A stretch of 64,000 bases of DNA, from assembly GCF_007858435.1 (NCBI RefSeq), contig NZ_VIGW01000011.1, positions 37,901-101,900 of the forward strand. The letters run 5' to 3'. A model generated the notes under the pieces. That model was not told where the DNA came from and searched no databases. It saw nothing but the letters and a program-made list of their open reading frames with translations. The translations under genes and the position numbers were made by a program. Origin of the DNA: Tsukamurella asaccharolytica (lineage in GTDB: Bacteria > Actinomycetota > Actinomycetes > Mycobacteriales > Mycobacteriaceae). Within the stretch, counting starts at the first letter, position 1. Every line of letters starts with the position of its first letter. Positions 10,182-56,375 of the stretch are shown piece after piece.

Positions 10182-12155
10182 TCAGCTGCCGCCGAGCACG
10201 ACGCCCTCGCGGCGCGGATCCGCGCCGCCGGCGTAGACGTCGCCCTGCTTGACGATCGCCGAGAGTCCCGACACCTGCGGCGCGAGGTCGAGCGTGTGCC
10301 CGAGGGTGCGCAGCTGCTCGACGACCTTGCGGCCCTCGTCGGTGTTCAGCGTCGGATGCGCGCTGTCCACGTTCGTCTTCGGGCTGTTCGCCGCGCCGAA
10401 GTTCGCCAGCCCGACGGCCTGCTGCGGGTTCAGCTTCCAGTCGGTCAGGCCGATGATCGTCTTGATCACGTACTGGATGATGACGGCGCCGCCGGGGGAG
10501 CCCAGCGCGCCGATCGCGTCGCCGCGGGCCCCGTCCGTGCCGCGGCCGAAGAGGATCGTCGGCGACATCGAGCTGCGCGGACGCTTGTTCGGTTGCACCC
10601 GGTTCGCTACCGGCTGCCCGGCCGAATCGATGGGCTCCGCGGAGAAGTCGGTGAGCTGATTGTTGAGCAGGAAACCGTCGACCATGTGGTACGAGCCGAA
10701 GGCCGACTCGACGGTGGTGGTCATCGACGCGACGTTGCCCGCCTTGTCGAGCACCGTGATGTGGCTGGTGCCGTGCTCGGGCGTGGTCGTCACGCCCGGT
10801 GTGGCGGTGGGGAACTCGCCCGGCTTCGCGGTGCCCATCGTCTTGGTCCGGTCGATCAGCTTGGCGCGCCCCTCGAGGTAGGCGGGATCCACCAGGGCGG
10901 CGGGGGAGCCGCCGGGCAACGGGATGAAGTCGGGGTCGGCGATGTACTTGTCGCGGTCGGCGTAGGCGAGGCGCTCGGCCTCGGAGATCAGGTGGATCGC
11001 CTCCGCGGTGGGGATGCCGCCGTCGGGGCCGGGGTCGCCGCCGTGCACCGCATCCGGCCCGAGCTTCGACAGGTCGAAGGAGTTGAGGATGCCGAGCGCC
11101 TGCGCCACGGTGATCCCGCCGGAGGAGGGAGCGGGCATGCCGCACAGCTCACGATCGCGGTACGGCGTGCACACGGCCTCTCGCGTCTTCACCGCGTACC
11201 GGGCTAGGTCCTCCACGGTCATCGTGCCCGCCGTGCGGCCGCCGGTGGTATCACGCACCGAGGCGACGATCGCCTCGGCGATCGGACCCGTGTAGAAGGC
11301 CTTGGCGCCCTCGGAAGCGATGGCGCCCAGGGTCTTCGCGTACGCGGGGTTGGTGAGCTTGACGCCCGCCTTCTTCGGCGCGCCGTCGGGCTCGAGGAAG
11401 TAGCCCCGCAGCTCCGCGTCGTTGGCGAAGTTCTTCGCCTCGTCGGCGATGGCGCCGGCCAGGCGTGGGCTGATCTCGAAGCCGTCGTCGGCGATCCGCA
11501 CGGCGGGATCGAACAGCTCGCGCCAGGTCTTGCTGCCGTGCTCGCCGTGGACCGCCTCCAGGAGGCGCAGCGCGCCGGGCACGCCGATCGCGCGGCCGGA
11601 GGAGCGGGCGTCGGGCTGGGGCACCGTCCGGTCGGTCGGGGAGATCCAGCGGAGGTAGTTCTCGTCGGCGCTCGCGGGCGCCGTCTCGCGGCCGTCGTAC
11701 GCCTGCACCTTCTTCGACTTCGCGTCGTAGTACAGCAGGAAGGCGCCGCCGGCGATGCCCGAGGACTGCGGTTCGACGAGCCCGAGCACCGTCTGCGCCG
11801 CGACGAGCGCGTCGGCCGCGCTGCCGCCCTGTTCGAGCACCTCGCACGCCGCTTTCGTGGCGATCGGGTTCGCGGTGGCGACGCCGTAGTCCTTGGTGTG
11901 TGTCACGGGCAGACCGGACCGGTAGCCGGACGCCCCTTCCGGATTGGTGCTGATGTCCCTGGGGCCGCCGGGCACCGCGGTTTCGGACGGCCGGTACATG
12001 GTGCCGGTGGGCCCGGTCGCGTCGCAGCCTCCCGCCGCGATCGTCACCGACGACGGTCCGCCGGACGCCCCGCCGTCGGAGCCGGAGGTGCCGCACGCGG
12101 TGAGCGCGAGAGGAATGACGACTGCGGCGACGGCCGCCGACCTGAGACGGTGCAT
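10182..12155 (-). CDS. ggt: Gamma-glutamyltransferase (lipoprotein)
   Basis: This N-terminal nucleophile hydrolase cleaves the gamma-glutamyl bond of glutathione-like compounds or transfers it to acceptors. The 657-residue precursor starts with a lipoprotein signal (ALTACG, Cys near residue 21), so it acts outside the membrane. Typical segments are NPIATKAACEVLEQGGSAADA, the autoprocessing/catalytic threonine in EHGTSHITVLD (about residue 462), NNQLTDFS and the oxyanion-region GSPGGAVIIQYV. The ATG at 12155 is chosen because GGAGG lies 5 nt upstream. Its mycolate-family substrate may be another gamma-glutamyl compound, because most of these bacteria make mycothiol instead of glutathione. Confidence 0.94.
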   Translation of the reverse strand: MHRLRSAAVAAVVIPLALTACGTSGSDGGASGGPSSVTIAAGGCDATGPTGTMYRPSETAVPGGPRDISTNPEGASGYRSGLPVTHTKDYGVATANPIATKAACEVLEQGGSAADALVAAQTVLGLVEPQSSGIAGGAFLLYYDAKSKKVQAYDGRETAPASADENYLRWISPTDRTVPQPDARSSGRAIGVPGALRLLEAVHGEHGSKTWRELFDPAVRIADDGFEISPRLAGAIADEAKNFANDAELRGYFLEPDGAPKKAGVKLTNPAYAKTLGAIASEGAKAFYTGPIAEAIVASVRDTTGGRTAGTMTVEDLARYAVKTREAVCTPYRDRELCGMPAPSSGGITVAQALGILNSFDLSKLGPDAVHGGDPGPDGGIPTAEAIHLISEAERLAYADRDKYIADPDFIPLPGGSPAALVDPAYLEGRAKLIDRTKTMGTAKPGEFPTATPGVTTTPEHGTSHITVLDKAGNVASMTTTVESAFGSYHMVDGFLLNNQLTDFSAEPIDSAGQPVANRVQPNKRPRSSMSPTILFGRGTDGARGDAIGALGSPGGAVIIQYVIKTIIGLTDWKLNPQQAVGLANFGAANSPKTNVDSAHPTLNTDEGRKVVEQLRTLGHTLDLAPQVSGLSAIVKQGDVYAGGADPRREGVVLGGS

Positions 12156-12230
12156 AGCGGCCTCCACGAGAATCGGATCACCCGGAACGTAACACCGGTC
12201 GGTGACGCCGCGCGAAGGATTCGCGGGACG

Positions 12231-12704
12231 TCAGCGGAACGAGGCGTCCGGCACCGTCGGCGGGCACACGCCGCCCGCGGGGGCGGCGAGTTCGAAGTGC
12301 CACCACTCGTTGTCGAAGGTGCGGCACAGGCCCCAGCGGTTCCCGTTGGCCTGCAACCAGGCGGCGCTCTGCCACGGCCCGACATCGATCGCCTGGCCGC
12401 TGACGTGCGTGGACTCGGCGGGTGGGAGCACCCAGCGCCGGGCCGCCGCGGGGGAGCCGTACCGGGCGAGACCGTCCTCCCACAGCCACTGCTGCTGGCC
12501 CCACGAGCGCGTGCCCGACGTGATGCTGAGCACCACGCCGTTCGCCGCGGCGGCACGGTGGGCCGCCGAGTAGGCCTCCGCGAGGGCGGGATCGAGTCCC
12601 GCGGTGCCGGGCACGGTGTCGGCCGAGGCCGCCGGGGCCACCAGCGCCGTCGCCGCCACGGCGAGGGCGGCGGCGATAACGGCGGCGGTACGGGGGATCG
12701 GCAT
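12231..12704 (-). CDS. Secreted M15-family D-alanyl-D-alanine carboxypeptidase
   Basis: This 157-residue exported protein has a signal peptide (MPIPRTAAV then an alanine-rich core ending ASADT) and an M15/VanY zinc peptidase domain. The zinc motif SxHxxGxAxD is STHVSGQAIDVG and the catalytic/zinc end is NEWWHFEL. Such enzymes trim the terminal D-alanine of peptidoglycan stems. The start is set at ATG 12704, not at upstream in-frame codons, because the signal peptide begins there and a -10 box (TAGAGT) lies 7 nt upstream. The protein is short for the family but has all metal ligands. Confidence 0.88.
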   Translation of the reverse strand: MPIPRTAAVIAAALAVAATALVAPAASADTVPGTAGLDPALAEAYSAAHRAAAANGVVLSITSGTRSWGQQQWLWEDGLARYGSPAAARRWVLPPAESTHVSGQAIDVGPWQSAAWLQANGNRWGLCRTFDNEWWHFELAAPAGGVCPPTVPDASFR

Positions 12705-42657: not shown

Positions 42658-43359
42658 GTGAAATACGAGCAGCACGAGGCGCACGCCTCGACGGCCCAGC
42701 GTGACGGGGACACCCGTGACGCGGTGGTCGGGCTGCTCATGAACCGGGGCCAGGCCACCGCGGCCGATATCGGCGAGGCCCTGGGGATCACGACGACCGC
42801 TGTGCGCCGTCACCTCGACAATCTGCTCGAGGCGGGCGACGTGACGGTCGCGCCACCGTCGGGCCTGGGCGGCCGGGGGCGGGGACGGCCCGCGAAGGAG
42901 TTCCTGCTCACGCCCTCCGGGCGGCGGCGCCTGGGTCAGGGCTACGACGCCCTGGCGGTCGACGCCCTCCGCGCGCTGCGCGAATTCGGCGGCGACGGGG
43001 CGGTGCGCACCTTCGCGCGGCGCCGGGCCGAGCAGGCCATCGGCAGCGTCAGCCCCACCGAGTCCGCGGACCCGGTGGACGGTGCCCATAGGATCGCGGC
43101 GTCGCTCTCGGACGCTGGATTCTCCGCCGATGCCCGAGAAGTGGGCAACGGCGTCCAGATCTGCCAACACCACTGCCCGGTGTCGGAGGTCGCAGCCGAG
43201 TTCCCTGAACTGTGCGAGGCCGAAATTTCGGCGATCGAACAGGCGTTGGGGACTCATGTACAGCGTTTGGCCACCATTGCCAATGGTGACCGCGCCTGCA
43301 CCACCCACGTGCCCCTCGAGCGCGTGGTCCGCGAGCAACCCGCTAAGGAGCTTCGATGA
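42658..43359 (+). CDS. sufR: SufR, Fe-S-sensing regulator of the suf operon
   Basis: SufR is a winged-helix repressor that senses Fe-S cluster status and controls its own operon. The 233-residue protein has the HTH in [32 protein letters not shown] and the wing in [12 protein letters not shown]. The C-terminal cysteines for the cluster are C-x3-C-x12-C (CQHHC, then ELC) plus a fourth near the end (RACTT). GTG 42658 is chosen because it matches the usual start and has AACAAT 6 nt upstream; longer extensions run into the mptB promoter. The stop overlaps sufB (ATGA). Confidence 0.95.
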
Positions 43360-44786
43360 CAACGGTCGACAACGGCCCGCTGTCCCAGGAGGAGACCATC
43401 GCCTCCCTGGGCACCTACGGCTACGGCTGGCACGATTCCGACGCCGCCGGCGCGTCGGCGCAGCGCGGACTCTCCGAGGCCGTGGTCGCGGACATCTCTG
43501 CGAAGAAGAACGAGTCCGAGTGGATGCTGCAGCAGCGACTCAAGGCGCTCAGCATCTTCGAGAAGAAGCCGATGCCCACCTGGGGCAGCGACCTCGACGG
43601 CATCGACTTCGACAACATCAAGTACTTCGTGCGCTCCTCCGAGAAGCAGGCCGAGTCCTGGGAGGACCTGCCCGAGGACATCAAGAACACCTACGACAAG
43701 CTCGGCATCCCCGAGGCGGAGAAGCAGCGCCTCGTCGCCGGCGTCGCCGCGCAGTACGAGTCCGAGGTCGTCTACCACTCGATCCGCGAGGACCTGGAGG
43801 AGAAGGGTGTCATCTTCATGGACACCGACACCGGTCTGCGTGAGCACCCGGAGCTCTTCGAGGAGTACTTCGGCTCGGTGATCCCCGCGGGCGACAACAA
43901 GTTCTCCGCGCTGAACACCGCCGTGTGGTCGGGCGGCTCGTTCATCTACGTGCCCAAGGGCGTCCACGTGGACATCCCGCTGCAGGCCTACTTCCGGATC
44001 AACACCGAGAACATGGGCCAGTTCGAGCGCACGCTGATCATCGTCGACGAGGACGCCTACGTGCACTACGTCGAGGGCTGCACCGCGCCGATCTACAAGT
44101 CGGACTCGCTGCACTCCGCGGTCGTCGAGATCATCGTCAAGAAGGGCGGGCGCTGCCGCTACACGACCATCCAGAACTGGTCGAACAACGTCTACAACCT
44201 GGTCACCAAGCGCGCCAAGGCCGAGGCCGGCGCGACCATGGAGTGGATCGACGGCAACATCGGCTCCAAGGTCACCATGAAGTACCCGGCCGTGTGGATG
44301 ATGGGCGAGTACGCCAAGGGCGAGGTGCTCTCCGTGGCCTTCGCCGGCGAGGGCCAGCACCAGGACACCGGATCGAAGATGGTGCACTTCGCGCCGAACA
44401 CGTCGAGCAACATCGTCAGCAAGTCGGTCGCCCGCGGCGGCGGCCGGGCGAGCTACCGCGGCCTGATCCAGGTCAACAAGGGCGCGCACGGCAGCAAGTC
44501 CACCGTGAAGTGCGACGCGCTACTGGTCGACACGATCTCCCGCTCGGACACCTACCCGTACGTCGACATCCGCGAGGACGACGTGACGATGGGCCACGAG
44601 GCCACCGTCTCGAAGGTCTCCGACGATCAGCTCTTCTACCTGATGAGCCGCGGCCTCACCGAGGACGAGGCCATGGCCATGGTGGTGCGCGGCTTCGTCG
44701 AGCCCATCGCCAAGGAACTGCCGATGGAGTACGCGCTCGAGCTGAACCGCCTGATCGAACTGCAGATGGAAGGGTCCGTGGGCTAG
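43356..44786 (+). CDS. sufB: Fe-S cluster assembly protein SufB
   Basis: SufB is the scaffold core of the SufBCD complex, on which nascent Fe-S clusters form. The 476-residue protein shows [24 protein letters not shown], the SufB-specific [45 protein letters not shown] with the conserved cysteine, and the C-terminal [29 protein letters not shown] helix pair that binds SufC. No intein is present, unlike the M. tuberculosis gene. Coupled to sufR and sufD by overlaps. Confidence 0.98.
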
Positions 44787-45973
44787 TGACGAACGCAGCA
44801 GCCAACTCAGTCTCCGAAGCTCTGGAGGCCCACCCCGTCGCCAACAAGGGCGAGCTGTTCACGTCCTTCGACGTGGCCGCCTTCGAGATCCCCAGCCACC
44901 GCGACGAGGCCTGGCGGTTCACCCCGCTGCGCCGGCTCAAGGGCCTGCACGACGGGTCCGTCCAGGCCGACGGTGCCGTGACCGCCACCGTCGACGCGAC
45001 GCCCGAGGGCGTCTCCTTCGAGACCGTCGCCAAGGGCGACGAACGTCTCGGCCAGGGCGGCGTCCCGTTCGACCGCGTCGCCGCGCAGGCCTTCACCTCG
45101 ACGACGGAGGCCTTCGTGCTGACCGTCGGCAAGGAGGTCGAGGTCGCGGAGCCCGTCTTCGTCCGTATCGCCGGCCCCGGCGAGGGGAAGACCGCGTTCA
45201 CTCACGTCCAGGTGCGGCTCGAGCGCCACGCCCGTGCGGTGGTCGTGCTCGACCACACCGGCTCGGGCTCGGTCGCCGAGAACGTCGAGGTCATCCTGGG
45301 CGACGGTGCCTCGGTGCAGATCATCGACGCGCAGGACTTCGCGGACGACGCCGTCTGGGTCACCCAGCACCATGTGCGCGTGGGCCGCGACGCCCACGTC
45401 CGGCATTTCGCGGTGCAGCTCGGCGGCGAGCTCGTCCGCATGACGCTGCGCGTGCAGTTCGACGCGCCCGGCGGCAACGCCGAGCTGTTCGGCCTGTACT
45501 TCGCCGACGACGGGCAGCACCTCGAGCAGCGGTTGCTGGTCGACCACGCGGTGCCGCACTGCAGGTCGAACGTCGTCTACAAGGGTGCGTTGCAGGGCGA
45601 TCCGTCCTCGAAGCTGCCCGACGCGCACACCGTGTGGGTCGGCGACGTGCTCATTCGCGCCGAGGCCGAGGGCACCGACACCTTCGAGCTCAACCGCAAC
45701 CTGATTCTCACCGACGGTGCCCGCGCCGATTCGGTGCCGAACCTGGAGATCGAGACCGGCGAGATCGAGGGAGCGGGCCACGCCAGCGCGACCGGCCGCT
45801 TCGACGACGAGCAGCTGTTCTACCTGCGCTCGCGCGGTATCCCCGAGGACGAGGCCCGCCGCCTGGTCGTGCGCGGATTCTTCCAGGAGCTGATCGACCG
45901 GATCTCCGTCCCCGAGCTGCGCGAGCGGCTCGCCGCGGCCATCGAACACGAACTCGCCACCGCCGGCGTCTGA
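44786..45973 (+). CDS. sufD: Fe-S cluster assembly protein SufD
   Basis: SufD pairs with SufB through a shared beta-helix fold and helps load iron. The 395-residue protein has the family N-terminus ending EAWRFTPLRRLKGL, a central beta-helix, and SNVVYKGALQGD near the interface. The C-terminal SufC-binding helices DEQLFYLRSRGIPEDEARRLVVRGFFQELIDRI are present, and the conserved interface histidine region is in LVDHAVPHC. GTG start shares a base with the sufB stop (TAGTG). It is followed 20 nt later by sufC. Confidence 0.97.
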   Translation: MTNAAANSVSEALEAHPVANKGELFTSFDVAAFEIPSHRDEAWRFTPLRRLKGLHDGSVQADGAVTATVDATPEGVSFETVAKGDERLGQGGVPFDRVAAQAFTSTTEAFVLTVGKEVEVAEPVFVRIAGPGEGKTAFTHVQVRLERHARAVVVLDHTGSGSVAENVEVILGDGASVQIIDAQDFADDAVWVTQHHVRVGRDAHVRHFAVQLGGELVRMTLRVQFDAPGGNAELFGLYFADDGQHLEQRLLVDHAVPHCRSNVVYKGALQGDPSSKLPDAHTVWVGDVLIRAEAEGTDTFELNRNLILTDGARADSVPNLEIETGEIEGAGHASATGRFDDEQLFYLRSRGIPEDEARRLVVRGFFQELIDRISVPELRERLAAAIEHELATAGV

Positions 45974-45993
45974 CCCGTAAGAAGGAACTGAAG

Positions 45994-48058
<2,065 letters not shown>

Positions 48059-48059
<1 letters not shown>

Positions 48060-48517
48060 TGCGCATGGAGCAGATGTATCAGGACGTGATCCTGGACCAT
48101 TACAAGCACCCGCACGGCCGCGGGCTGCGCGAGCCCTTCGAGGCCGAGGTCCACCACGTCAACCCCACCTGCGGCGACGAGGTGACCCTCCGGGTGCACC
48201 TGTCCGACGATCACGAGACCGTCGTCGACGTCTCGTACGACGGCCAGGGCTGCTCGATCTCGCAGGCGTCCACCTCGGTCCTCACCGACCAGGTGATCGG
48301 CGTGCCCGTCGGCGAGGCCCTGAAGATGCTGCAGTCCTACACGGAGATGCTGCAGTCCCGGGGCCAGGTCGAGGGCGACGAGGACCTCATCGGCGACGGC
48401 ATCGCCTTCGCCGGCGTCGCGAAGTACCCCGCGCGCGTCAAGTGCGCACTGCTCGGCTGGATGGCGTTCAAGGACGCGCTGTCCCAGATCATCGACTCGG
48501 AGGAGAAGACGGCATGA
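48059..48517 (+). CDS. sufU: SufU, zinc-dependent sulfurtransferase partner of SufS
   Basis: SufU accepts persulfide sulfur from SufS in Gram-positive bacteria. The 152-residue IscU-like protein has the three zinc/cluster cysteines in NPTCGDEVTL (with the adjacent Asp), YDGQGCSISQAS, and ARVKCALLGW, and the Gram-positive insert between them. It begins MRMEQMYQDVILDHYKHP; ATG 48059 is used, though ATG 48065 is nearly as likely. Overlaps sufS upstream and the next gene downstream. Confidence 0.97.
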
Positions 48518-48900
48518 GCGAGAACGCTGCTGAGGCCGCCGGCGCCGCGGCCGACCCGGCGCAGGCCGGCGACAACCCGCTGAACCTGCCCACGCTGTTC
48601 GACGTCGAGGAGGCCATGCGCGACGTGGTCGACCCCGAGCTGGGCATCAACGTGGTCGACCTGGGCCTCGTCTACGACCTCAAGGTCGACGACGATGCCG
48701 CGGTCCTCATCGACATGACCCTCACCTCGGCGGCCTGCCCCCTGCAGGACGTCATCGAGGATCAGACCCGCGCCGCGCTGGTCTCGTCGGGCCTGGCGAC
48801 CGACGCCAAGATCAACTGGGTCTGGCTCCCGCCGTGGGGTCCCGACAAGATCACCGACGACGGCCGCGAGCAGCTGCGCGCCCTCGGCTTCACCGTCTAA
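48514..48900 (+). CDS. sufT: SufT-like MIP18/DUF59 Fe-S maturation protein
   Basis: This 128-residue protein of the MIP18/DUF59 family helps deliver Fe-S clusters to client proteins. An acidic, alanine-rich leader (1-25) precedes the domain, which has VEEAMRDVVDPELGINVVDLGLVYDL, MTLTSAACPLQDVIE with the conserved cysteine, and the C-terminal WVWLPPWGPDKITDDGREQLRALGF. It corresponds to Rv1466, the last gene of the M. tuberculosis suf operon. The ATG overlaps the sufU stop. Confidence 0.95.
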   Translation: MSENAAEAAGAAADPAQAGDNPLNLPTLFDVEEAMRDVVDPELGINVVDLGLVYDLKVDDDAAVLIDMTLTSAACPLQDVIEDQTRAALVSSGLATDAKINWVWLPPWGPDKITDDGREQLRALGFTV

Positions 48901-48908
48901 GACTGGCA

Positions 48909-49499
48909 ATGCCGCTGCGCAATCGAGTGGACCCGTGGGGCCGGATCGTCGCCGATCCGGCCCGCGGCGCTCTCCTGGGCAATCGCGGGATTCTCCACGA
49001 CGAGAGTGGGACGGTCGTGCGCGAACACGCGAACGCGATGTGGATCGCGTGCCGGCTCGACTTCAACGGCCGCTACCGGTCGCCCAGGCAGCCGGACCCG
49101 CGACGCTACACGCAGCTGTTCCTGTTTGATGAAGCCACCGCCTTCGCCGCGGGCCACCGGCCGTGCGGCGAGTGCCGGCGTGCCGACTACCGCGAGTTCA
49201 AGCGGCTGTGGGCCGTCGCGAACCCGGACGTCGAGAACACGCCGAAGGCGATGGATCGCGCCCTGCGCGCGGAGCGTCGGGCCGGAAACCCACCCGTGAC
49301 TGTGACTCCGCCCGAAGGAGCCGTGGTCACCGACGGCACGGACGCCTATCTCCGCTGGAACGACGCCTGGCTGCGGTGGAGCTTCGAGGGCTACACCCCG
49401 GCCGCACCGGCGGGGGAGCTGCGGTTGCTCACCCCGCCGTCAATCGTTCGCATGCTGGAGATCGGCCTCCTGGTCGCTGCGCACCCGTCGGCCGGCTGA
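48909..49499 (+). CDS. Conserved hypothetical protein with GHRPCGECRR motif
   Basis: This 196-residue soluble protein starts MPLRNRVDPWGRIV and contains AMWIACRLDFNGRYR, QLFLFDEATAFAAGHRPCGECRRADYREFK and YLRWNDAWLRWSFEGY. The two cysteines in PCGEC recall the metal-binding N-terminal domain of Ada-like proteins, but no catalytic domain is seen. It follows the suf operon by only 8 nt, so it may be read through from it. Its 3' 71 bp overlap the 3' end of the convergent flavoprotein gene, an unusually long tail-to-tail overlap. Function unknown. Confidence 0.75.
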   Translation: MPLRNRVDPWGRIVADPARGALLGNRGILHDESGTVVREHANAMWIACRLDFNGRYRSPRQPDPRRYTQLFLFDEATAFAAGHRPCGECRRADYREFKRLWAVANPDVENTPKAMDRALRAERRAGNPPVTVTPPEGAVVTDGTDAYLRWNDAWLRWSFEGYTPAAPAGELRLLTPPSIVRMLEIGLLVAAHPSAG

Positions 49500-52191
49500 T
49501 CGCGGGTCGTGACCCCGCGGCAAGCGCCAGTCGCGCGTGGGCGCGGACATCGGCGTCGGAGTCCTCCAGCGCAGCGGTGAGCGCATCGGCGACCGCGGGA
49601 ACCTCCGGCCACGTCCGCAGTGCCACGACCGCCGCCTTCCGCACGTCGAGATGCGGGTCGCCGAGGGCGGATCCGAGGGCCGCGACGGCGCCGTCGGGCC
49701 CGAGGGCCACCGCACCTCGCGCCGCGCCCTGCCGAACCTGCCACGCGCGATCGGCGAGGCCGGCGCCGAGTAGGTCGAGGTCGGTGGCGTCGCCGAGCGC
49801 GCCCAGGGCCTCGAGCGCCGCGGCCCGCACGAGCGGGTCGTGGTCGGCGGCGAGCGCACGCACGGCGTCGACGCCGCCGCGCCCGACGGTGGCCAGGCCG
49901 GCCGCCGCGGCGATCCGCACCTCCCGGTTGCCATCGGCGGTCGCGGGAACGAGCGCGGCCCAGTCGTCGTGCGAGACCAGCCCGCTCACGCCCACGACCC
50001 GCACCCGGTGATCGGCATCGCCCACCAGAGCCGCGAACTGCTCCGGCGATCCGGCCTTGAGCGAACGCAGCAGATTGCCGACGGCTGCGCGCACCACGGG
50101 ATCGGGGGAGCCCAGGAAGGCCGCGAGCCCGTCGGCGGACGGCAGCACCTCGACCAGCTCGATCAGCCCGGCGGCGGCCGCGCGCCGGACCGGGGCGTCC
50201 GCGTCGCCGAGCGCGGCGACCAGAGGAGTGAGGAACCCGTCGGGCGCGCCCTCCACGAGGAACGTGACGGCGGTGCGCCGGACCGTCGCGTCCGGATCGG
50301 ACAGGAATCGGGCGAGTTCCTCGACGGCAGGCCCGTCCAGGGCCAGGAGCTCCCGCAACCGCGGCGAGACCGCGGGTACCGCAGTCGCACGTGAGGCCGC
50401 CGCGGGGATCGCGCCGATCGGTGCCACCGCCAGCGGCCCCAGCACCTCGACGGAATCCGACGAGCTGGGAATGTGGTCGAACTCGTCCACCGCCACCAGG
50501 TACGGGGCCACCGGCCGGGTCAGGAACTCCAGCTCGCCGTCGGCACTCAGGCGCAGGTTCAGGTGCCGGCCCCATCGCTCGTCGTCGCGCTCGGGCAGGT
50601 CCGGGCGATCGTGGTACAGGCCCCATCGGGATTCGGTGCGCGCGAGTGAGGCCTTCGCCGCCATCTCCGCGCAGTCCCGGATGAACGAGACCTCCACGCA
50701 GCGCATCAGCTCGTGCGGCGTCCGCGCGCCCAATCCGTCGACCTCCCCGCGCATCCGCTCGAAGGTCTCGATGGCGATGGTCAGCTTCGGCGCGGTCTTC
50801 GGCGGCGCGATGTAGTCGTTCACGAAGCGGCGCAGCTTGTACTCGACCTGGGGTTGCGGCGGACCGTCGGGCCTGCGGGCCGGGCCGTAGATCAGCTCGT
50901 GCGCCGCCGCGATCTGCGACTCCAGCCCGTCGGACGCGACCGGTACCGTCCGCGCGTGCCGCACCGCGTCCGCGCCGGCCAGCTCGCCGAAGACGAACGC
51001 GCCGATCATGTAGTTGTGCGGCACGCAGGCCAGGTCGCCGGCCGCGTACAGGCCGGGCACCGTGGTGCGGGCGTTCTCGTCGACCCACACCCCGGACGCG
51101 GAATGCCCGCCGCACAGGCCGATCTCGGAGACGTGCATCTCGATGTCGTGCGTGCGGTAGTCGTGGCTGCGGTTCGCGTGGAAGGTGCCGCGCGTCGGGC
51201 GTTCCGTGGTGTGCAGGATCGACTCCAGCTCGCCGAGCGTCTCCTCGGGCAGGTGCGAGACCTTGAGGTAGATCGGCCCGCGGGCGGAATCGATCTCGGA
51301 GCGCACCTCGGCGATCATCTGCCCCGACCAGTAGTCGGAGTCGACGAACCGCTCGCCGAGCGCGTTCACCTGGTAGCCGCCGAAGGGATTCGCCACGTAG
51401 GCGCAGGCGGGGCCGTTGTAGTCCTTGATCAGCGGGTTGATCTGGAAGCACTCGATGCCGCTGAGCTCGGCGCCCGCGTGGTACGCCATCGCGTAGCCGT
51501 CGCCGGCGTTCGCCGGGTTCTCGTAGGTGCCGTAGAGGTACCCGGACGCGGGCAGCCCGAGGCGGCCGCACGGCCCGGTCGCCAGGACGACGGCGCCGGC
51601 CGAGATCTCGACGAATTCCCCGGTCCGCGTGTTGAAGGCGACAGCGCCGACGGCCCGTCGGTCCTCCCCGGGACCGGTCGTGAGCACGCGCACCGGCATC
51701 ACCCGGTTCTCGATGCGGATCCGCTCCCGCATCTTCTTCTGCCGCAGGACCCGGTACAGCGCCTTCTTCACGTCCTTGCCCTCGGGCATCGGCAGCACGT
51801 ACGAGCCGGAGCGGTGCACGCGGCGTACGGCGTACTCGCCGTACTCGTCCTTCTCGAACTTCACGCCGTACCGCTCGAGGCGCTGGATCATCGCGAAGCC
51901 CCGCGTCGCCGTCTGGTACACGGTCTGCTGGTTCACGATGCCGTCGTTGGCGCGGGTGATCTCGGCGACGTAGTCCTCGGGCTCGGCCTTGCCGGGGATG
52001 ACGGCGTTGTTCACGCCGTCCATGCCCATCGCCAGCGCGCCCGAGTGGCGCACGTGCGACTTGTCGAGCAGGAGCACGTCGGCGCCCGCCTCGGCCGCGG
52101 TGAGCGCCGCCATCGTGCCGGCGGTGCCGCCGCCGATCACGAGCACGTCGCAGGTCAGGCGGGTGCGGTCGGCGATCTCGGGGATGTCCAT
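49429..52191 (-). CDS. AprA/fumarate-reductase-type flavoprotein fused to HEAT repeats
   Basis: This 920-residue protein has two parts. Residues about 1-560 form a flavoprotein of the succinate dehydrogenase/fumarate reductase/APS-reductase superfamily. It has the FAD site DVLVIGGGTAGTMAALTAAEAG, DKSHVRHSGALAMGMDGVNN, ARGPIYLK, GGHSASGVWVDE and the C-terminal FAD contact GLYAAGDLACVPHNYMIGA; several of these resemble AprA more than SdhA. Residues about 605-880 form eight or nine HEAT-like repeats (DPDATVRRTAVTFL, DADAPVRRAAAAGL, DPLVRAAALEALGAL, DPHLDVRKAAVVAL). It is the last gene of the GntR-ferredoxin-ABC operon. Substrate unknown; a sulfur compound is inferred from the importer type. Confidence 0.88.
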   Translation of the reverse strand: MDIPEIADRTRLTCDVLVIGGGTAGTMAALTAAEAGADVLLLDKSHVRHSGALAMGMDGVNNAVIPGKAEPEDYVAEITRANDGIVNQQTVYQTATRGFAMIQRLERYGVKFEKDEYGEYAVRRVHRSGSYVLPMPEGKDVKKALYRVLRQKKMRERIRIENRVMPVRVLTTGPGEDRRAVGAVAFNTRTGEFVEISAGAVVLATGPCGRLGLPASGYLYGTYENPANAGDGYAMAYHAGAELSGIECFQINPLIKDYNGPACAYVANPFGGYQVNALGERFVDSDYWSGQMIAEVRSEIDSARGPIYLKVSHLPEETLGELESILHTTERPTRGTFHANRSHDYRTHDIEMHVSEIGLCGGHSASGVWVDENARTTVPGLYAAGDLACVPHNYMIGAFVFGELAGADAVRHARTVPVASDGLESQIAAAHELIYGPARRPDGPPQPQVEYKLRRFVNDYIAPPKTAPKLTIAIETFERMRGEVDGLGARTPHELMRCVEVSFIRDCAEMAAKASLARTESRWGLYHDRPDLPERDDERWGRHLNLRLSADGELEFLTRPVAPYLVAVDEFDHIPSSSDSVEVLGPLAVAPIGAIPAAASRATAVPAVSPRLRELLALDGPAVEELARFLSDPDATVRRTAVTFLVEGAPDGFLTPLVAALGDADAPVRRAAAAGLIELVEVLPSADGLAAFLGSPDPVVRAAVGNLLRSLKAGSPEQFAALVGDADHRVRVVGVSGLVSHDDWAALVPATADGNREVRIAAAAGLATVGRGGVDAVRALAADHDPLVRAAALEALGALGDATDLDLLGAGLADRAWQVRQGAARGAVALGPDGAVAALGSALGDPHLDVRKAAVVALRTWPEVPAVADALTAALEDSDADVRAHARLALAAGSRPAISRPTGAQRPGGRSPACERLTAG

Positions 52192-52208
52192 GGAACTCCT
52201 GATGCTGG

Positions 52209-52957
<749 letters not shown>

Positions 52958-52961
<4 letters not shown>

Positions 52962-53797
52962 CGGTCGCCCCGCGGCAGCCAGCGGGTGACACGGCGGCCG
53001 GCCAGCTCGATGACGGCCGAGGTCAGGAAGCCGAGCACGCCGATCGTCAGCATGCCGACGAAGACCGCGGGGTAGTCGACGAGCGTGTACGACTGCCACG
53101 TGCGGTAACCCACGCCGAGGCGCCCCGAGATCATCTCCGCGGAGACGAGGCAGATCCACGCGACGCCGACGCCCACGGAGAGCCCGGAGAAGACGCCGGG
53201 CAGCGAGCCGGGGAGCACGACCCGCCACAGCACCGCGAAGTCGCCGCCGCCCTGGGTGCGCACGGAGTCCTCCCACACGGTCGGGAGGGCGCGGACGGCG
53301 TGCCGCACACTCACCGCGATGGGGAAGAACGCGGCCGTCGCGGTGATCGCGACCATGCCCGCCTCGGACGACGGGAGCAGCAGGATCATCACCGGGACCA
53401 GGGCGATCGCGGGGATGGGCCGGACGAGCTCGATGAGGGTGCCGAAGGTCAGCTCCGCGGCGCGGGAGCGGCCCAGCGCGACGCCCGCGGCGATCCCGAG
53501 CGCCGCGGCGAGAGCGAAGCCGGTGCCGATCCGGATCAGCGACTGCGCGAGGTCCAGCCAGTACTCGCCGGTGCGGACCGACTGCGCGAACCGCTCGGCG
53601 ACGGCGCTCGCCGAGGGCAGCGTGTCGAACCGGATCCAGCTGAGCGCGACGTGCTGCGTGGTGAGCAGCTGCCAGACGCCGATCGCGGCGGCGACCACCG
53701 CGATCCGGACCGGCCAGGCAGGGAGAACGGCCCGGCGGGCGGGGGCCGCGGCCTGCCGCCGGAGCGCTGCGGCGGGGAGCGAGTCGAGGGCGGTCAC
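52958..53797 (-). CDS. ABC importer permease (SsuC/TauC type)
   Basis: This 279-residue membrane permease has about six helices and the EAA-loop pattern of binding-protein-dependent importers: EDSVRTQGGGDFAVLWRVVLPGSLPGVFSGL. It is preceded by ELVRPIPAIALVPVMILLLPSSE and followed by SAEMISGRLGVGYRTW, typical of the SsuC/TauC/NrtB group. GTG start overlaps the binding-protein stop (GTGA). Confidence 0.94.
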
Positions 53798-55137
53798 CGT
53801 CGGGCCTCCTCGAGGAGGGCGCGGTACTCGACGGGGACGGCGCCCGGGTGGTCGGCGCGGTACCGGTCACGGGCGTCGGGGCCGGCGAAGGGCACGAGCG
53901 TCGCGTCGTCGCGCAGCCACAGTGATTGGTCGGCGTACCAGCGGGTCCCGGTGAGCGCGTCCGAGACGTAGGCGGCGCGGACCTTCCGGTCGGTCGTTGC
54001 GAGCGTGCGGATCAGCGCGGTCGCGTCGGGGACGGTCTCGGTGGCGTCGGCGCCGTCGAACCAGATCTCCGCGGTGGGCTTCGGCGCGGGAGTGCCTGCA
54101 TCGTAACGGAATCCGCCGCGCGCCTCCTGTGCTGCGGCGAGGGGCCTCGGGTCGACGAACCGGTCGACGTCGAGCGGCGTGCCGAACTGGCCGATCGACT
54201 GCAAGTACCCGATGTCGCCCTTGAGCGCTCCGAGGAGTGGGGCGGTGAGCGTCGGGTTGGGGTCGGTGCCGCCCGGGCCGTTGTACTGGTAGACGACCTC
54301 GGAGGGCAGGCCGCTGGCCTGCGCGACGTCCTGCGCGGCCTGCAGGGGGTGCTCCCGCTGGAAGTCGGTGGCGTCGAGCTGCGCCTGGAGGAAGGCGCGC
54401 ACCACGTCCGGGTGGGACGCCGCGTACTTCCGGTTGGCGACGACGCCGTGCAGCGTGGGCGTGTTCAGCTCGCCGCCGTCGTAGAGGAGGCGGGCCTTGC
54501 CCTGGCGAACGAGGAGCCCGGGCCAGGCGACGAACTGCGCCAGCGCCTGGACCTGGCCGGACTCGAGCGCGCTCGCCCCGACCTGCGGCTGCTGGTTCAC
54601 GACGGTAACGTCGCCGACGGCGATGCCCGCGCGGCTCAGCGCGGCGACGAGGGTGCCGTGCCCGGCGGAGCCGACCGACGCGGAGACCTGCTTACCCCGC
54701 AGGTCCGCGAGCGAGCGCAGCGGCGAGCCGGGGGAGACCACCACCGAGTTGAGGGCGCCCCGCGCGCTCGACCCGGTCACCGAGAGCATCGCGGTCTCGG
54801 TGTCGGGGCTCGACTGCGCGCGGGATCCGTTGATCAGCAGCGGGTAGTCGCCCATGGAGCCGATCTGGATCTTGCCGGCGAGCATCCCGCTCGTGATCGG
54901 GGCGCCGGTGTCGAAGTCCTGCCAATCCACGCGGAACCTCCCGATCCCGGAGAGGCGCTTCTCGAGGAAGCCCTTGGCACGCAGCAGGGTTCCCGCGGTC
55001 ACGGTGTTGATGGTCTTGGACTGATAGCCCACCACGAGGGTCTGGGTGGACTCGTCGGCCGCGGGCTCGAGGGAGCAGGACGCGAGGGCGGCGGAGGTGG
55101 CGGCGACGACGGCGATCGCGCGCAGGGTGGATGTCAT
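53794..55137 (-). CDS. ABC importer substrate-binding lipoprotein with C-terminal extension
   Basis: This 447-residue lipoprotein has the lipobox LASC (Cys near residue 21). Residues about 35-330 form an SsuA/TauA/NMT1-like binding domain: VVGYQSKTINTVTAGTLL, IQIGSMGDYPLLING, SLADLRGKQVSASVGSAGHGTLV, SHPDVVRAFLQAQLDA. The final 110 residues (about 335-447) are extra compared with ordinary members. They contain EIWFDGADATETVPDATAL, AYVSDALTGTRWYADQSLW and YRADHPGA, which look faintly like a NosL-type domain. The ligand is unknown. Second structural gene after the ferredoxin, in the GntR operon. Confidence 0.88.
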   Translation of the reverse strand: MTSTLRAIAVVAATSAALASCSLEPAADESTQTLVVGYQSKTINTVTAGTLLRAKGFLEKRLSGIGRFRVDWQDFDTGAPITSGMLAGKIQIGSMGDYPLLINGSRAQSSPDTETAMLSVTGSSARGALNSVVVSPGSPLRSLADLRGKQVSASVGSAGHGTLVAALSRAGIAVGDVTVVNQQPQVGASALESGQVQALAQFVAWPGLLVRQGKARLLYDGGELNTPTLHGVVANRKYAASHPDVVRAFLQAQLDATDFQREHPLQAAQDVAQASGLPSEVVYQYNGPGGTDPNPTLTAPLLGALKGDIGYLQSIGQFGTPLDVDRFVDPRPLAAAQEARGGFRYDAGTPAPKPTAEIWFDGADATETVPDATALIRTLATTDRKVRAAYVSDALTGTRWYADQSLWLRDDATLVPFAGPDARDRYRADHPGAVPVEYRALLEEARR

Positions 55138-55163
55138 GGCTGGGTTCTCCGGGCTGGGACGGG

Positions 55164-55391
55164 CTATCGCAGGAGGTAGGGCATGTTGACGGTGACGGCG
55201 CCGGTCGGGCAGCGCGCGGCGCAGGGCCCGCAGTACCAGCACTCGTCGACGTACATGTGGGCGCGGTTGGTGCTCGGGTCGAGGGCGAGCGAGTCGAGGG
55301 GGCAGGCCTCGATGCAGATGTTGCAGCCCTCGATGCAGAGGGATGCGTCGATGGTGACGGGGACGTCGACGCGCTGTTCGACCTGTGCCAT
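55164..55391 (-). CDS. AprB-like two-cluster ferredoxin
   Basis: This 75-residue ferredoxin should carry two [4Fe-4S] clusters. The first motif is C-x3-C-x2-C-x3-CP (CIEGCNICIEACP), and the second is CWYCGPCAARCPTGAVTV, very like the CWECYSCVKMCP segment of APS-reductase beta subunit AprB. It is therefore the probable electron partner of the AprA-like flavoprotein encoded at the far end of the same operon. It lies 27 nt after gntR. Confidence 0.93.
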   Translation of the reverse strand: MAQVEQRVDVPVTIDASLCIEGCNICIEACPLDSLALDPSTNRAHMYVDECWYCGPCAARCPTGAVTVNMPYLLR

Positions 55392-55418
55392 GGGTATGTT
55401 CCTCCGTGTCGGGAGCGG

Positions 55419-56144
55419 TCAGTCGCGGTGCAGGGTGCCGCGCAGGGTGATCCGGTCGGATCGGATGCGGATGTACTCGAGGTCGACGGGGCGACCGCAC
55501 TCGAGGTGGGTGAGGCGCTCGTACAGCAGGAGCGGCGAGCCGGTGGCGATCTCCAGGTTCGCGGCGGTGTGCGGATCGGCCGCCGCAGCGGTCAGGCAGT
55601 AGTCGCTGGTGCCGAGGCGATGACCCGTGACGGCCTCGATCAGTGGGAAGACGTCCTCGTTTTCGAGGTCCTGCTCCAGGAGCAGGTCGCCGACGTCGGA
55701 GACCAGGTACGTGAGGTCCAGGCTGATGGGCTCGTCGTCGAGGTAGCGCAGCCGCTCCAGGTACACGGCCTCCTCGCGGCGCGGGATGCCGAGCTTCTCG
55801 GCGACGATCGGGGGCGGCACGAGCCGGGTGGCGGTGCGTACACGATTACGGACCTCGCCGTGGAGCGAGAGGGTCTCGCGGAGCCCGCGAAGGCTGTCGA
55901 GCCCGTGGTCGAAGGTGCGGGCGATCACCTCGGTGCCCACGCGCGGGCCGCGGCGGATCCAACCCTCGTCGCGCAGGATCGACAGGGCCTCGCGGACGGT
56001 GCCCCGGGAGACGGAGAACTGGACGCCGAGGTCGTCCTCGCCGGGCAGGGACCCGCGATAGGTGCCGTCGTGGATCGCCTGGCGCAGGACGTCGGCGACG
56101 ATGCGCGCGGAATCGGCGCGGATCGGGCGTTCGGTCGCTGGCAT
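55419..56144 (-). CDS. GntR-family regulator (HutC/UTRA subfamily)
   Basis: This 241-residue regulator has an N-terminal winged helix (GSLPGEDDLGVQFSVSRGTVREALSILRDEGWI) and a C-terminal UTRA ligand domain ending SPLLLYERLTHLECGRPVDLEYIRIRSDR, typical of HutC-type repressors. It heads the minus-strand operon that continues through ferredoxin, importer and flavoprotein, so it is the probable local repressor responding to the imported compound or a product. The -10 TATCGT lies 6 nt before its ATG. Confidence 0.94.
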   Translation of the reverse strand: MPATERPIRADSARIVADVLRQAIHDGTYRGSLPGEDDLGVQFSVSRGTVREALSILRDEGWIRRGPRVGTEVIARTFDHGLDSLRGLRETLSLHGEVRNRVRTATRLVPPPIVAEKLGIPRREEAVYLERLRYLDDEPISLDLTYLVSDVGDLLLEQDLENEDVFPLIEAVTGHRLGTSDYCLTAAAADPHTAANLEIATGSPLLLYERLTHLECGRPVDLEYIRIRSDRITLRGTLHRD

Positions 56145-56150
56145 GCGGCA

Positions 56151-56156
56151 ACGATA
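56151..56156 (-). promoter_or_regulatory. -10 box of the gntR operon (leaderless)
   Basis: TATCGT on the minus strand ends 6 nt before the gntR ATG at 56144. The 231-bp region up to 56375 shows no further gene and no operator that I can defend. Confidence 0.55.
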
Positions 56157-56375
56157 GGAACAGGTCGGCCGGGTCCGGCCGCGCCCGGAAGGGTGCCTCG
56201 GCGAAGGAACCGCGTCGGCGCTGGATTCCGCCGGTCGGAGCGCGCCAGCGGCCCCTCCGAGCTGGGACTTCCCGGTCGCGACCTGCTATTGCGCCACCCG
56301 CCGGAGGGCGCCGCGGATTTGAATCTTGGTGATCGACTGGTTTCCCGGACGGTCCTCCACAGGCGCCCGCCGCGG

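Follow-up and report, generated by a model that had tools for sequence, protein, structure and literature searches.

A HEAT-fused, AprA-like flavoprotein encoded with an SsuA/TauA-related importer in Tsukamurella asaccharolytica, and its possible role in sulfur compound reduction

What might an operon do that places a relative of APS reductase beside an ABC importer and a GntR regulator, and why does its flavoprotein end in HEAT repeats? We addressed this question for a locus in a 64,000-nucleotide stretch of Tsukamurella asaccharolytica DNA, hereafter the window. An earlier note had described six same-strand operon genes at 49429-56144, and we confirmed all six on the minus strand with their coordinates unchanged. 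The first encodes a GntR/UTRA regulator of 241 aa (55419-56144; Pfam GntR 1.6e-13, UTRA 7.6e-31), followed by a 75-aa ferredoxin with two [4Fe-4S] clusters and a CWYC motif (55164-55391; Fer4_7 4e-9), a 447-aa binding lipoprotein with an NMT1/SsuA-like domain and a C-terminal domain whose counterparts in relatives resemble NosL (53794-55137; NMT1 7.4e-16), an ABC permease of 279 aa (52958-53797; BPD_transp_1 1.5e-18), an ABC ATPase of 250 aa (52209-52961; ABC_tran 6.3e-32), and a flavoprotein of 920 aa (49429-52191; FAD_binding_2 1.4e-35, Succ_DH_flav_C 3e-13). From gntR to the flavoprotein gene the successive spacings are 27 nt, 26 nt, two overlaps of 4 nt each, and 17 nt, and the six genes are probably co-transcribed. 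The flavoprotein consists of an AprA-like catalytic part (residues ~1-570), a HEAT tail (~620-891; Pfam HEAT_2 9.2e-30 in four stretches), which bears out the fusion described before, and a 27-aa terminal extension. Two motifs cited previously were also found, GGHSASGVWV at flavoprotein residues 361-370 and CWYCGPCAARCP.

The terminal extension lies at window 49429-49512, where a TCA stands in place of the TGA stop of close relatives, and these last 27 residues are peculiar to the window copy. Through the TGA to TCA change the reading frame gains 27 aa and shares 71 nt with a conserved gene that runs towards it. Window 42658-48900 holds a cluster for SUF iron-sulfur assembly (a regulator, SufB, D, C, S, U and a SufT-like gene, named by eye), which adjoins the operon in convergent orientation; it is retained beside the operon in several relatives within the genus, not in all. 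At the other end, the GntR and UTRA domains agree with the proposed GntR control, and the best NCBIfam match of the regulator was PhnF at 83 bits, under the cut-off of 156.8. A promoter and terminator scan of the operon returned 0 sigma-70 promoter-like sites and 1 terminator-like site, the latter on the other strand, and an operator search across loci found palindromes in some loci, with none common to all. Of 10 loci aligned within the genus, 8 share without any change the block CCTATCGTTGCCGCATG at the gntR start (window 56142-56158), which is perhaps the -10 box of a leaderless transcript.

To which family does the flavoprotein belong? It scored 1571.2 bits against NF010374/PRK13800 (cut-off 1196) over residues 1-891, HEAT tail included, and its catalytic part scored 845 bits against the unfused family NF006131/PRK08275 (cut-off 587). 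The operon had been called uncharacterised, which is right insofar as no functional study of PRK13800 was found in the open-access literature searched, but the family is already catalogued and an unfused plasmid version has carried a functional prediction since 2025. In the accessible part of a sulfur proteomics paper on R. qingshengii, the terms "flavoprotein" and "fumarate reductase" occur 0 times (PMC8557817). The nearest solved relative is the PAPS reductase alpha subunit of Methanothermococcus thermolithotrophicus (8a8o, 8.9e-58), followed by the APS reductase AprA (4e-29) and SdhA (2e-21), and a ten-sequence flavoprotein profile gave 283, 205 and 136 bits for PAPS reductase, APS reductase and SdhA, respectively. 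Scores against the AprAB families lay below their cut-offs (TIGR02061, 126.9 bits against 641.75; TIGR02060, 25.8 against 135.65). Pfam, NCBIfam and solved-structure matches together upheld the proposal of an AprAB-like flavoprotein and ferredoxin. The catalytic core of the window protein is ~60% identical to that of Cupriavidus or Pseudanabaena over ~530 residues, and the nearest named copy, from Tsukamurella tyrosinosolvens, is 92.8% identical over 920 residues and has the same six genes.

With PAPS and APS reductases as its nearest solved relatives, the enzyme could be an assimilatory APS or PAPS reductase that provides an extra sulfate route. In alignments with solved relatives, AprA Trp234 corresponds to Tyr223 and AprA Arg265 to Leu254 (window numbering); we take Trp234, Arg265 and His398 of AprA to be substrate or active-site positions. 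Leu254 and Tyr223 are invariant in 27/27 aligned members, whereas a PAPS-reductase-like protein of Ilyobacter keeps Arg and Trp at these positions. His363, the histidine of GGHS, is invariant in 102 rows and aligns with the histidine of PAPS-reductase-like proteins; the printed AprA alignments skip this stretch, and we presume that His363 is equivalent to AprA His398. The absence of AprA-type active-site residues had been named as a result that would speak against the AprAB-like reading, and what we found is mixed, with the substrate Arg changed to Leu and the His of GGHS kept. The reported PAPS-binding residues of the M. thermolithotrophicus enzyme (MtPAPSR), Lys120/Arg121/Ser122 (PMC10322725), face His126/Arg127/Ser128 in one alignment, while the loop aligns otherwise in another; at those positions in the one alignment, Arg occurs in 15/27 members and Ser in 13/27.

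The gene neighbourhoods also bear on a sulfate role. One operon remnant (locus L050) lies beside cysD/cysN-like genes. On an Ilyobacter plasmid (L271:3303-6782), cysC, an AprA-like gene, a ferredoxin gene and cysD form a bacterial PAPS-reductase-like sulfate set, and the search recovered cysC and cysD in this control. In contrast, six queries from the Cys pathway run against 106 loci, a set that did not include L050, gave only two short domain matches. The genome, moreover, already has CysH/CysD-family genes. The earlier statement that sulfate-reduction genes are absent is therefore true of the neighbourhood and not of the genome, which elsewhere has four PF01507 (CysH/CysD family) matches and, at L268, a run of CysN-, CysD-, CysH- and sulfite-reductase-like genes (named by eye). 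Because ordinary sulfate assimilation genes exist elsewhere, the operon would not be the sole sulfur route and could use them downstream. With the substrate Arg replaced by Leu in every member aligned, we rejected identity with APS or PAPS reductase, and an assimilatory role of this kind seems very improbable.

A second possibility is suggested by the database name, fumarate reductase/succinate dehydrogenase, according to which the enzyme would act on a carbon acid as a reductase or dehydrogenase. Membership of the superfamily is compatible with this, and amide hydrolases by the cluster (asparaginase-like and M20 genes in L037, M20 in L062, an amidase in L052 and L055) give a hint that the substrate is organic and may contain an amide link. 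In L037 (10851-17298), the same operon carries an inserted second ABC importer together with the asparaginase-like gene and the M20 peptidase gene. However, the histidine of the SdhA FHPTG motif is replaced by Asn252 (in QINPL) when the window protein is aligned to the SdhA-like protein of its own genome, and on this residue identity with succinate dehydrogenase or fumarate reductase was rejected. The operon partner of the flavoprotein is the 75-aa dicluster ferredoxin rather than an SdhB-type subunit, no membrane anchor is encoded in the operon, and the kin of the importer are sulfonate and taurine proteins. We therefore regard a carbon acid as a doubtful substrate, with a low probability. 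Taken together, and as far as sequence can tell, the flavoprotein is AprA-like, yet its examined pocket residues match neither APS reductase nor succinate dehydrogenase/fumarate reductase.

The family also has conserved residues of its own. Four cysteines, Cys248, Cys263, Cys360 and Cys507, are invariant in 102/102 aligned rows, which represent 97 loci with five loci entered twice, and the three outgroup proteins aligned lack all four. Cys360 lies three residues ahead of His363, and the four cysteines may have a part in the function of the enzyme. The window ferredoxin has eight Cys and a Trp in common with the ferredoxin of the Ilyobacter PAPS-reductase-like system, and a Trp in the ferredoxin subunit has been proposed to take part in electron transfer in MtPAPSR (PMC10322725).

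The HEAT tail had been read as a possible docking surface that APS and fumarate reductases lack. It is not a unique add-on, since other phyla conserve the HEAT part as a gene of its own. Flavoproteins of Proteobacteria and Cyanobacteria have ~570-590 aa, and their clusters include a separate HEAT gene. Such a gene was present in 9/9 annotated loci (L051-L057, L059 and L062) and in 78/80 named genome loci, the latter being the best 80 of 588 relatives; the two exceptions in that set (L075 and L087) are short stretches of 13,048 and 11,011 bases. A profile built from 28 separate HEAT proteins matched 7/7 fused tails at 82.8-95.5 bits, and the window tail is collinear with the separate proteins over profile positions 41-317 of 324. 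Reversed or shuffled tails were reported in 3 of 14 control runs, all below 0 bits. Scores of the Cupriavidus HEAT protein were 75 bits against NF010374 and 62 against NblB, so HEAT sequence is by itself only moderately specific and gene order carries the argument for a third subunit. In the flavoprotein tree, 13/13 fused rows fell on one side of a branch with 100/100 support (midpoint root), and with an Ilyobacter outgroup the fused rows formed one group at 99/100. The separate in-cluster gene, the collinear profile and the single fused group lead us to conclude, from comparison of sequences and gene order, that the tail represents a third subunit joined by fusion. We rejected the idea that the HEAT part is a mere oddity, given the separate gene in the clusters of relatives and the profile match to the tails.

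We then asked how the gene set is distributed. A search of 61 genomes placed the fused family above its cut-off in 14, among them 8 of 16 Tsukamurella genomes (own genome included), and of 396 Actinomycetota genomes 12 had it, again with its own; this patchy presence in the genus marks the six-gene set as accessory. Of 60 genomes chosen around a Cupriavidus, 14 had the unfused family above cut-off, and the core occurs in 55 plasmid-collection records and many genomes. Ten of 15 relative loci have the six genes uninterrupted and the flavoprotein in one ORF; in the other five, extra genes are inserted (L037), the importer is missing (L041 and L042), the flavoprotein is in pieces (L049) or a remnant is left (L050). 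A second set of relative loci showed the six-gene order in 11/11. By eye, broken copies comprise L049, with its flavoprotein in pieces, L167, whose permease gene contains a transposase-like ORF, and the remnants L050 and L179.

For neighbouring genes we surveyed the best 80 of 588 relatives plus 26 actinobacterial loci, with L049 and L050 left out and the window not counted. Among the best 80 of 588 relatives, a three-part core was conserved with the regulator: flavoprotein and ferredoxin in 80 each, GntR in 79 and HEAT in 78. DUF971 was present in 66 of these 80, and the importer was not constant (ATPase 57, permease 54, binding protein 53, hence not found in 27). DmoA/NtaA occurred in 5 of the 80, an SfnB-like gene in 1 and LysR (query from L059) in 1; FdxA, FNR, Mrp, TauE, YeiH and amidase occurred in 0/80. 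The 26 actinobacterial loci had GntR, flavoprotein and ferredoxin in 26/26, the importer genes in 24/26 (no binding protein was found in the other two) and an FdxA-like match in 2/26, with 0/26 for each of DUF971, FNR, Mrp, TauE, YeiH, DmoA/NtaA, SfnB, LysR and amidase. The HEAT count of 12/26 in these loci covers only fused tails passing the threshold.

Single loci added further neighbours. TauE lies in L053 and L059, YeiH in L053, and NtaA/DmoA neighbours likewise in single loci. The distant clusters L058, L062 and L178 contain FNR and FdxA, and L057 contains FdxA and a 1153-aa oxidoreductase with 606 bits to NF005128, below the cut-off of 1072. One of the two actinobacterial loci with an FdxA-like match is L263, where a protein of 557 aa encoded just past the flavoprotein gene (10658-12331) begins like FdxA (43% to the FdxA query) and is a possible electron donor. 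Two cyanobacterial loci, L052 and L053, carry Mrp. DUF971 and Mrp together are parts of the HCF101-type Fe-S factor, and their presence in clusters suggests dedicated Fe-S cluster maturation.

The importer had been proposed from the start to be of sulfonate/nitrate type, and a relationship to SsuA and TauA was supported. The binding protein matched SsuA and TauA in the PDB at about 7e-20 and reached 148 bits with SsuA_fam, under the cut-off of 163.5; the permease scored 107.1 bits with SaoP and 106.5 with SsuC, both under cut-off (347 for SsuC), and the ATPase 209.5 bits with TauB, under 357. With all three proteins under NCBIfam cut-offs, the ligand class is not fixed by these matches. Another oxyanion or a metal-bound ligand would be a further option, prompted by the NosL-like domain, DUF971, Mrp and HEAT, which suggest that metals or Fe-S clusters are handled. 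NosL (PF05573) matched an extra C-terminal domain of ~130 residues in 12/14 aligned binding proteins, at E values up to 5 and 1.9e-5 at best, and the DUF971 and Mrp genes and the four invariant cysteines fit the same idea. However, NosL was not detected in scans of the window binding protein or of three further actinobacterial copies (L037, L258 and L264). Against it stand also the inconstant importer, the lack of Mrp among the best 80 of 588 relatives and the lack of DUF971 in the 26 actinobacterial loci. We consider an oxyanion or metal ligand quite unlikely.

The flavoprotein and ferredoxin might instead serve only as electron donors for a desulfonating monooxygenase whose gene lies elsewhere, as has been said of asfRABC in Pseudomonas putida S-313. 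That cluster, reported to be needed for aromatic sulfonates, has the same kit of reductase, ferredoxin, binding protein and ABC transporter, with a LysR regulator (PMC4267179), and asfA has been reported from Rhodococcus and Williamsia (PMC4267179, PMC9694294). The 24 luciferase-type matches in the genome are possible partners, and in the Pseudanabaena locus L053 a LysR gene adjoins the flavoprotein gene. As a general feature of the loci, however, the regulator is of the other type (LysR in 1/80 and 0/26, GntR in 79/80 and 26/26, the 80 being the best of 588 relatives), and no oxygenase was a constant neighbour in the same 80 and 26 loci.

Comparison with an AsfA copy points the same way. We took genome G096 to be that of C. 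metallidurans CH34, and NF006131 had no match there at 1e-60. In C. metallidurans, Rmet_4334/5 are given as AsfA/AsfB, and four citrate synthase genes, matched in order to tags from the same source (PMC2864759), lie at 719, 859, 1611 and 2106 kb. At ~1.11-1.14 kb per tag, Rmet_4334/5 should be near 932 kb, and a flavoprotein-ferredoxin pair was found at 927.9-929.9 kb, with no LysR beside it in the gene calls. Owing to this fit in position without an adjoining LysR, we regard the assignment as good but not certain. The inferred AsfA is distant from the family studied here (56 bits with NF006131, cut-off 587, and 44 with NF010374; its best match was TfrA at 108, cut-off 718), and its ferredoxin is without the Trp. 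We rejected AsfA orthology on this inferred copy, and an electron-feeding role like that of AsfAB appears unlikely, though still credible.

What, then, would the operon do? We tentatively propose, with somewhat less than an even chance of being right, that its products take up a small sulfur compound resembling a sulfonate and reduce it. That the flavoprotein would be a reductase is the best-supported reading, from its PAPS reductase kinship, the ferredoxin Trp and the reductase and ferredoxin helpers in a few distant clusters; with FNR at 0/80 and 0/26 and FdxA at 0/80 and 2/26 (80 being the best of 588), it is these few loci that suggest the electron source. The importer type, the scattered sulfur neighbours and the organosulfonate assimilation predicted in 2025 for the F. 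caldus plasmid version (PMC12375680) favour an organosulfur substrate. This reading is weakened because no sulfur neighbour is constant among the best 80 of 588 relatives, and the amide hydrolases in a few clusters have no obvious fit with a simple sulfonate.

In the proposed route, the lipoprotein, permease and ATPase would import the sulfonate-like compound, and the three-part enzyme would act on it in the cytosol. NADPH would be the electron source, and a ferredoxin-NADP reductase or a ferredoxin would relay the electrons to both [4Fe-4S] clusters of the small ferredoxin, from which they would reach FAD and finally the substrate. The product, sulfite or something similar, would then be used by the normal sulfite reductase. 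The HEAT part would probably be a docking or cluster-delivery surface. The GntR/UTRA protein would repress the operon until its ligand binds. More speculatively, and in our view rather unlikely, the family could be a third APS-reductase-type branch, common in aerobic bacteria, that carries out reductive, O2-free C-S (or N-S) cleavage with FAD, low-potential clusters, invariant cysteines beside the pocket and a HEAT subunit delivering clusters or substrate in the manner of MMS19-type HEAT adaptors.

The family was already catalogued, and what we add is the pocket-residue test, the invariant cysteines, the argument for HEAT as a third subunit and the separation from the inferred AsfA. A conserved and widespread core is named "fumarate reductase" in databases, and its examined active-site residues say otherwise. 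If the enzyme were a reductive desulfonase, bacteria would have a new, oxygenase-free way to draw sulfur from organic matter; failing that, it would still be a well-defined target for which clear predictions can be made.

How does the operon compare with known systems? The window flavoprotein is a member of NF010374/PRK13800, whose full name, fumarate reductase/succinate dehydrogenase flavoprotein, is unsupported by the examined active-site residues. With dissimilatory AprAB the window pair has sequence kinship in both subunits; it differs in the change of Arg265 to Leu and in a ferredoxin without the long tail (75 aa against chains of 150-166 aa). The 8a8o PAPS reductase, as described in PMC10322725, likewise combines a flavoprotein with a 2x[4Fe-4S] ferredoxin, whereas the window system has the substrate Arg replaced, four extra invariant Cys, a HEAT part, a ferredoxin of 75 instead of 104 aa and no sulfate-activation genes nearby. 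The asfRABC genes of P. putida S-313 have in common with it the logic of reductase, ferredoxin, binding protein and importer (PMC4267179), but the window family is distant from the inferred CH34 AsfA, is accompanied by GntR rather than LysR at almost every locus, and includes the HEAT part. In the L057 cluster, the HEAT gene is separate, the cluster is on a plasmid, and the importer is not directly adjacent, with an ABC ATPase further on and on the other strand; if this cluster, on pTcM1, is the plasmid module described as "ferredoxin/APS reductase/GntR" (PMC12375680), that module is an unfused version of the core.
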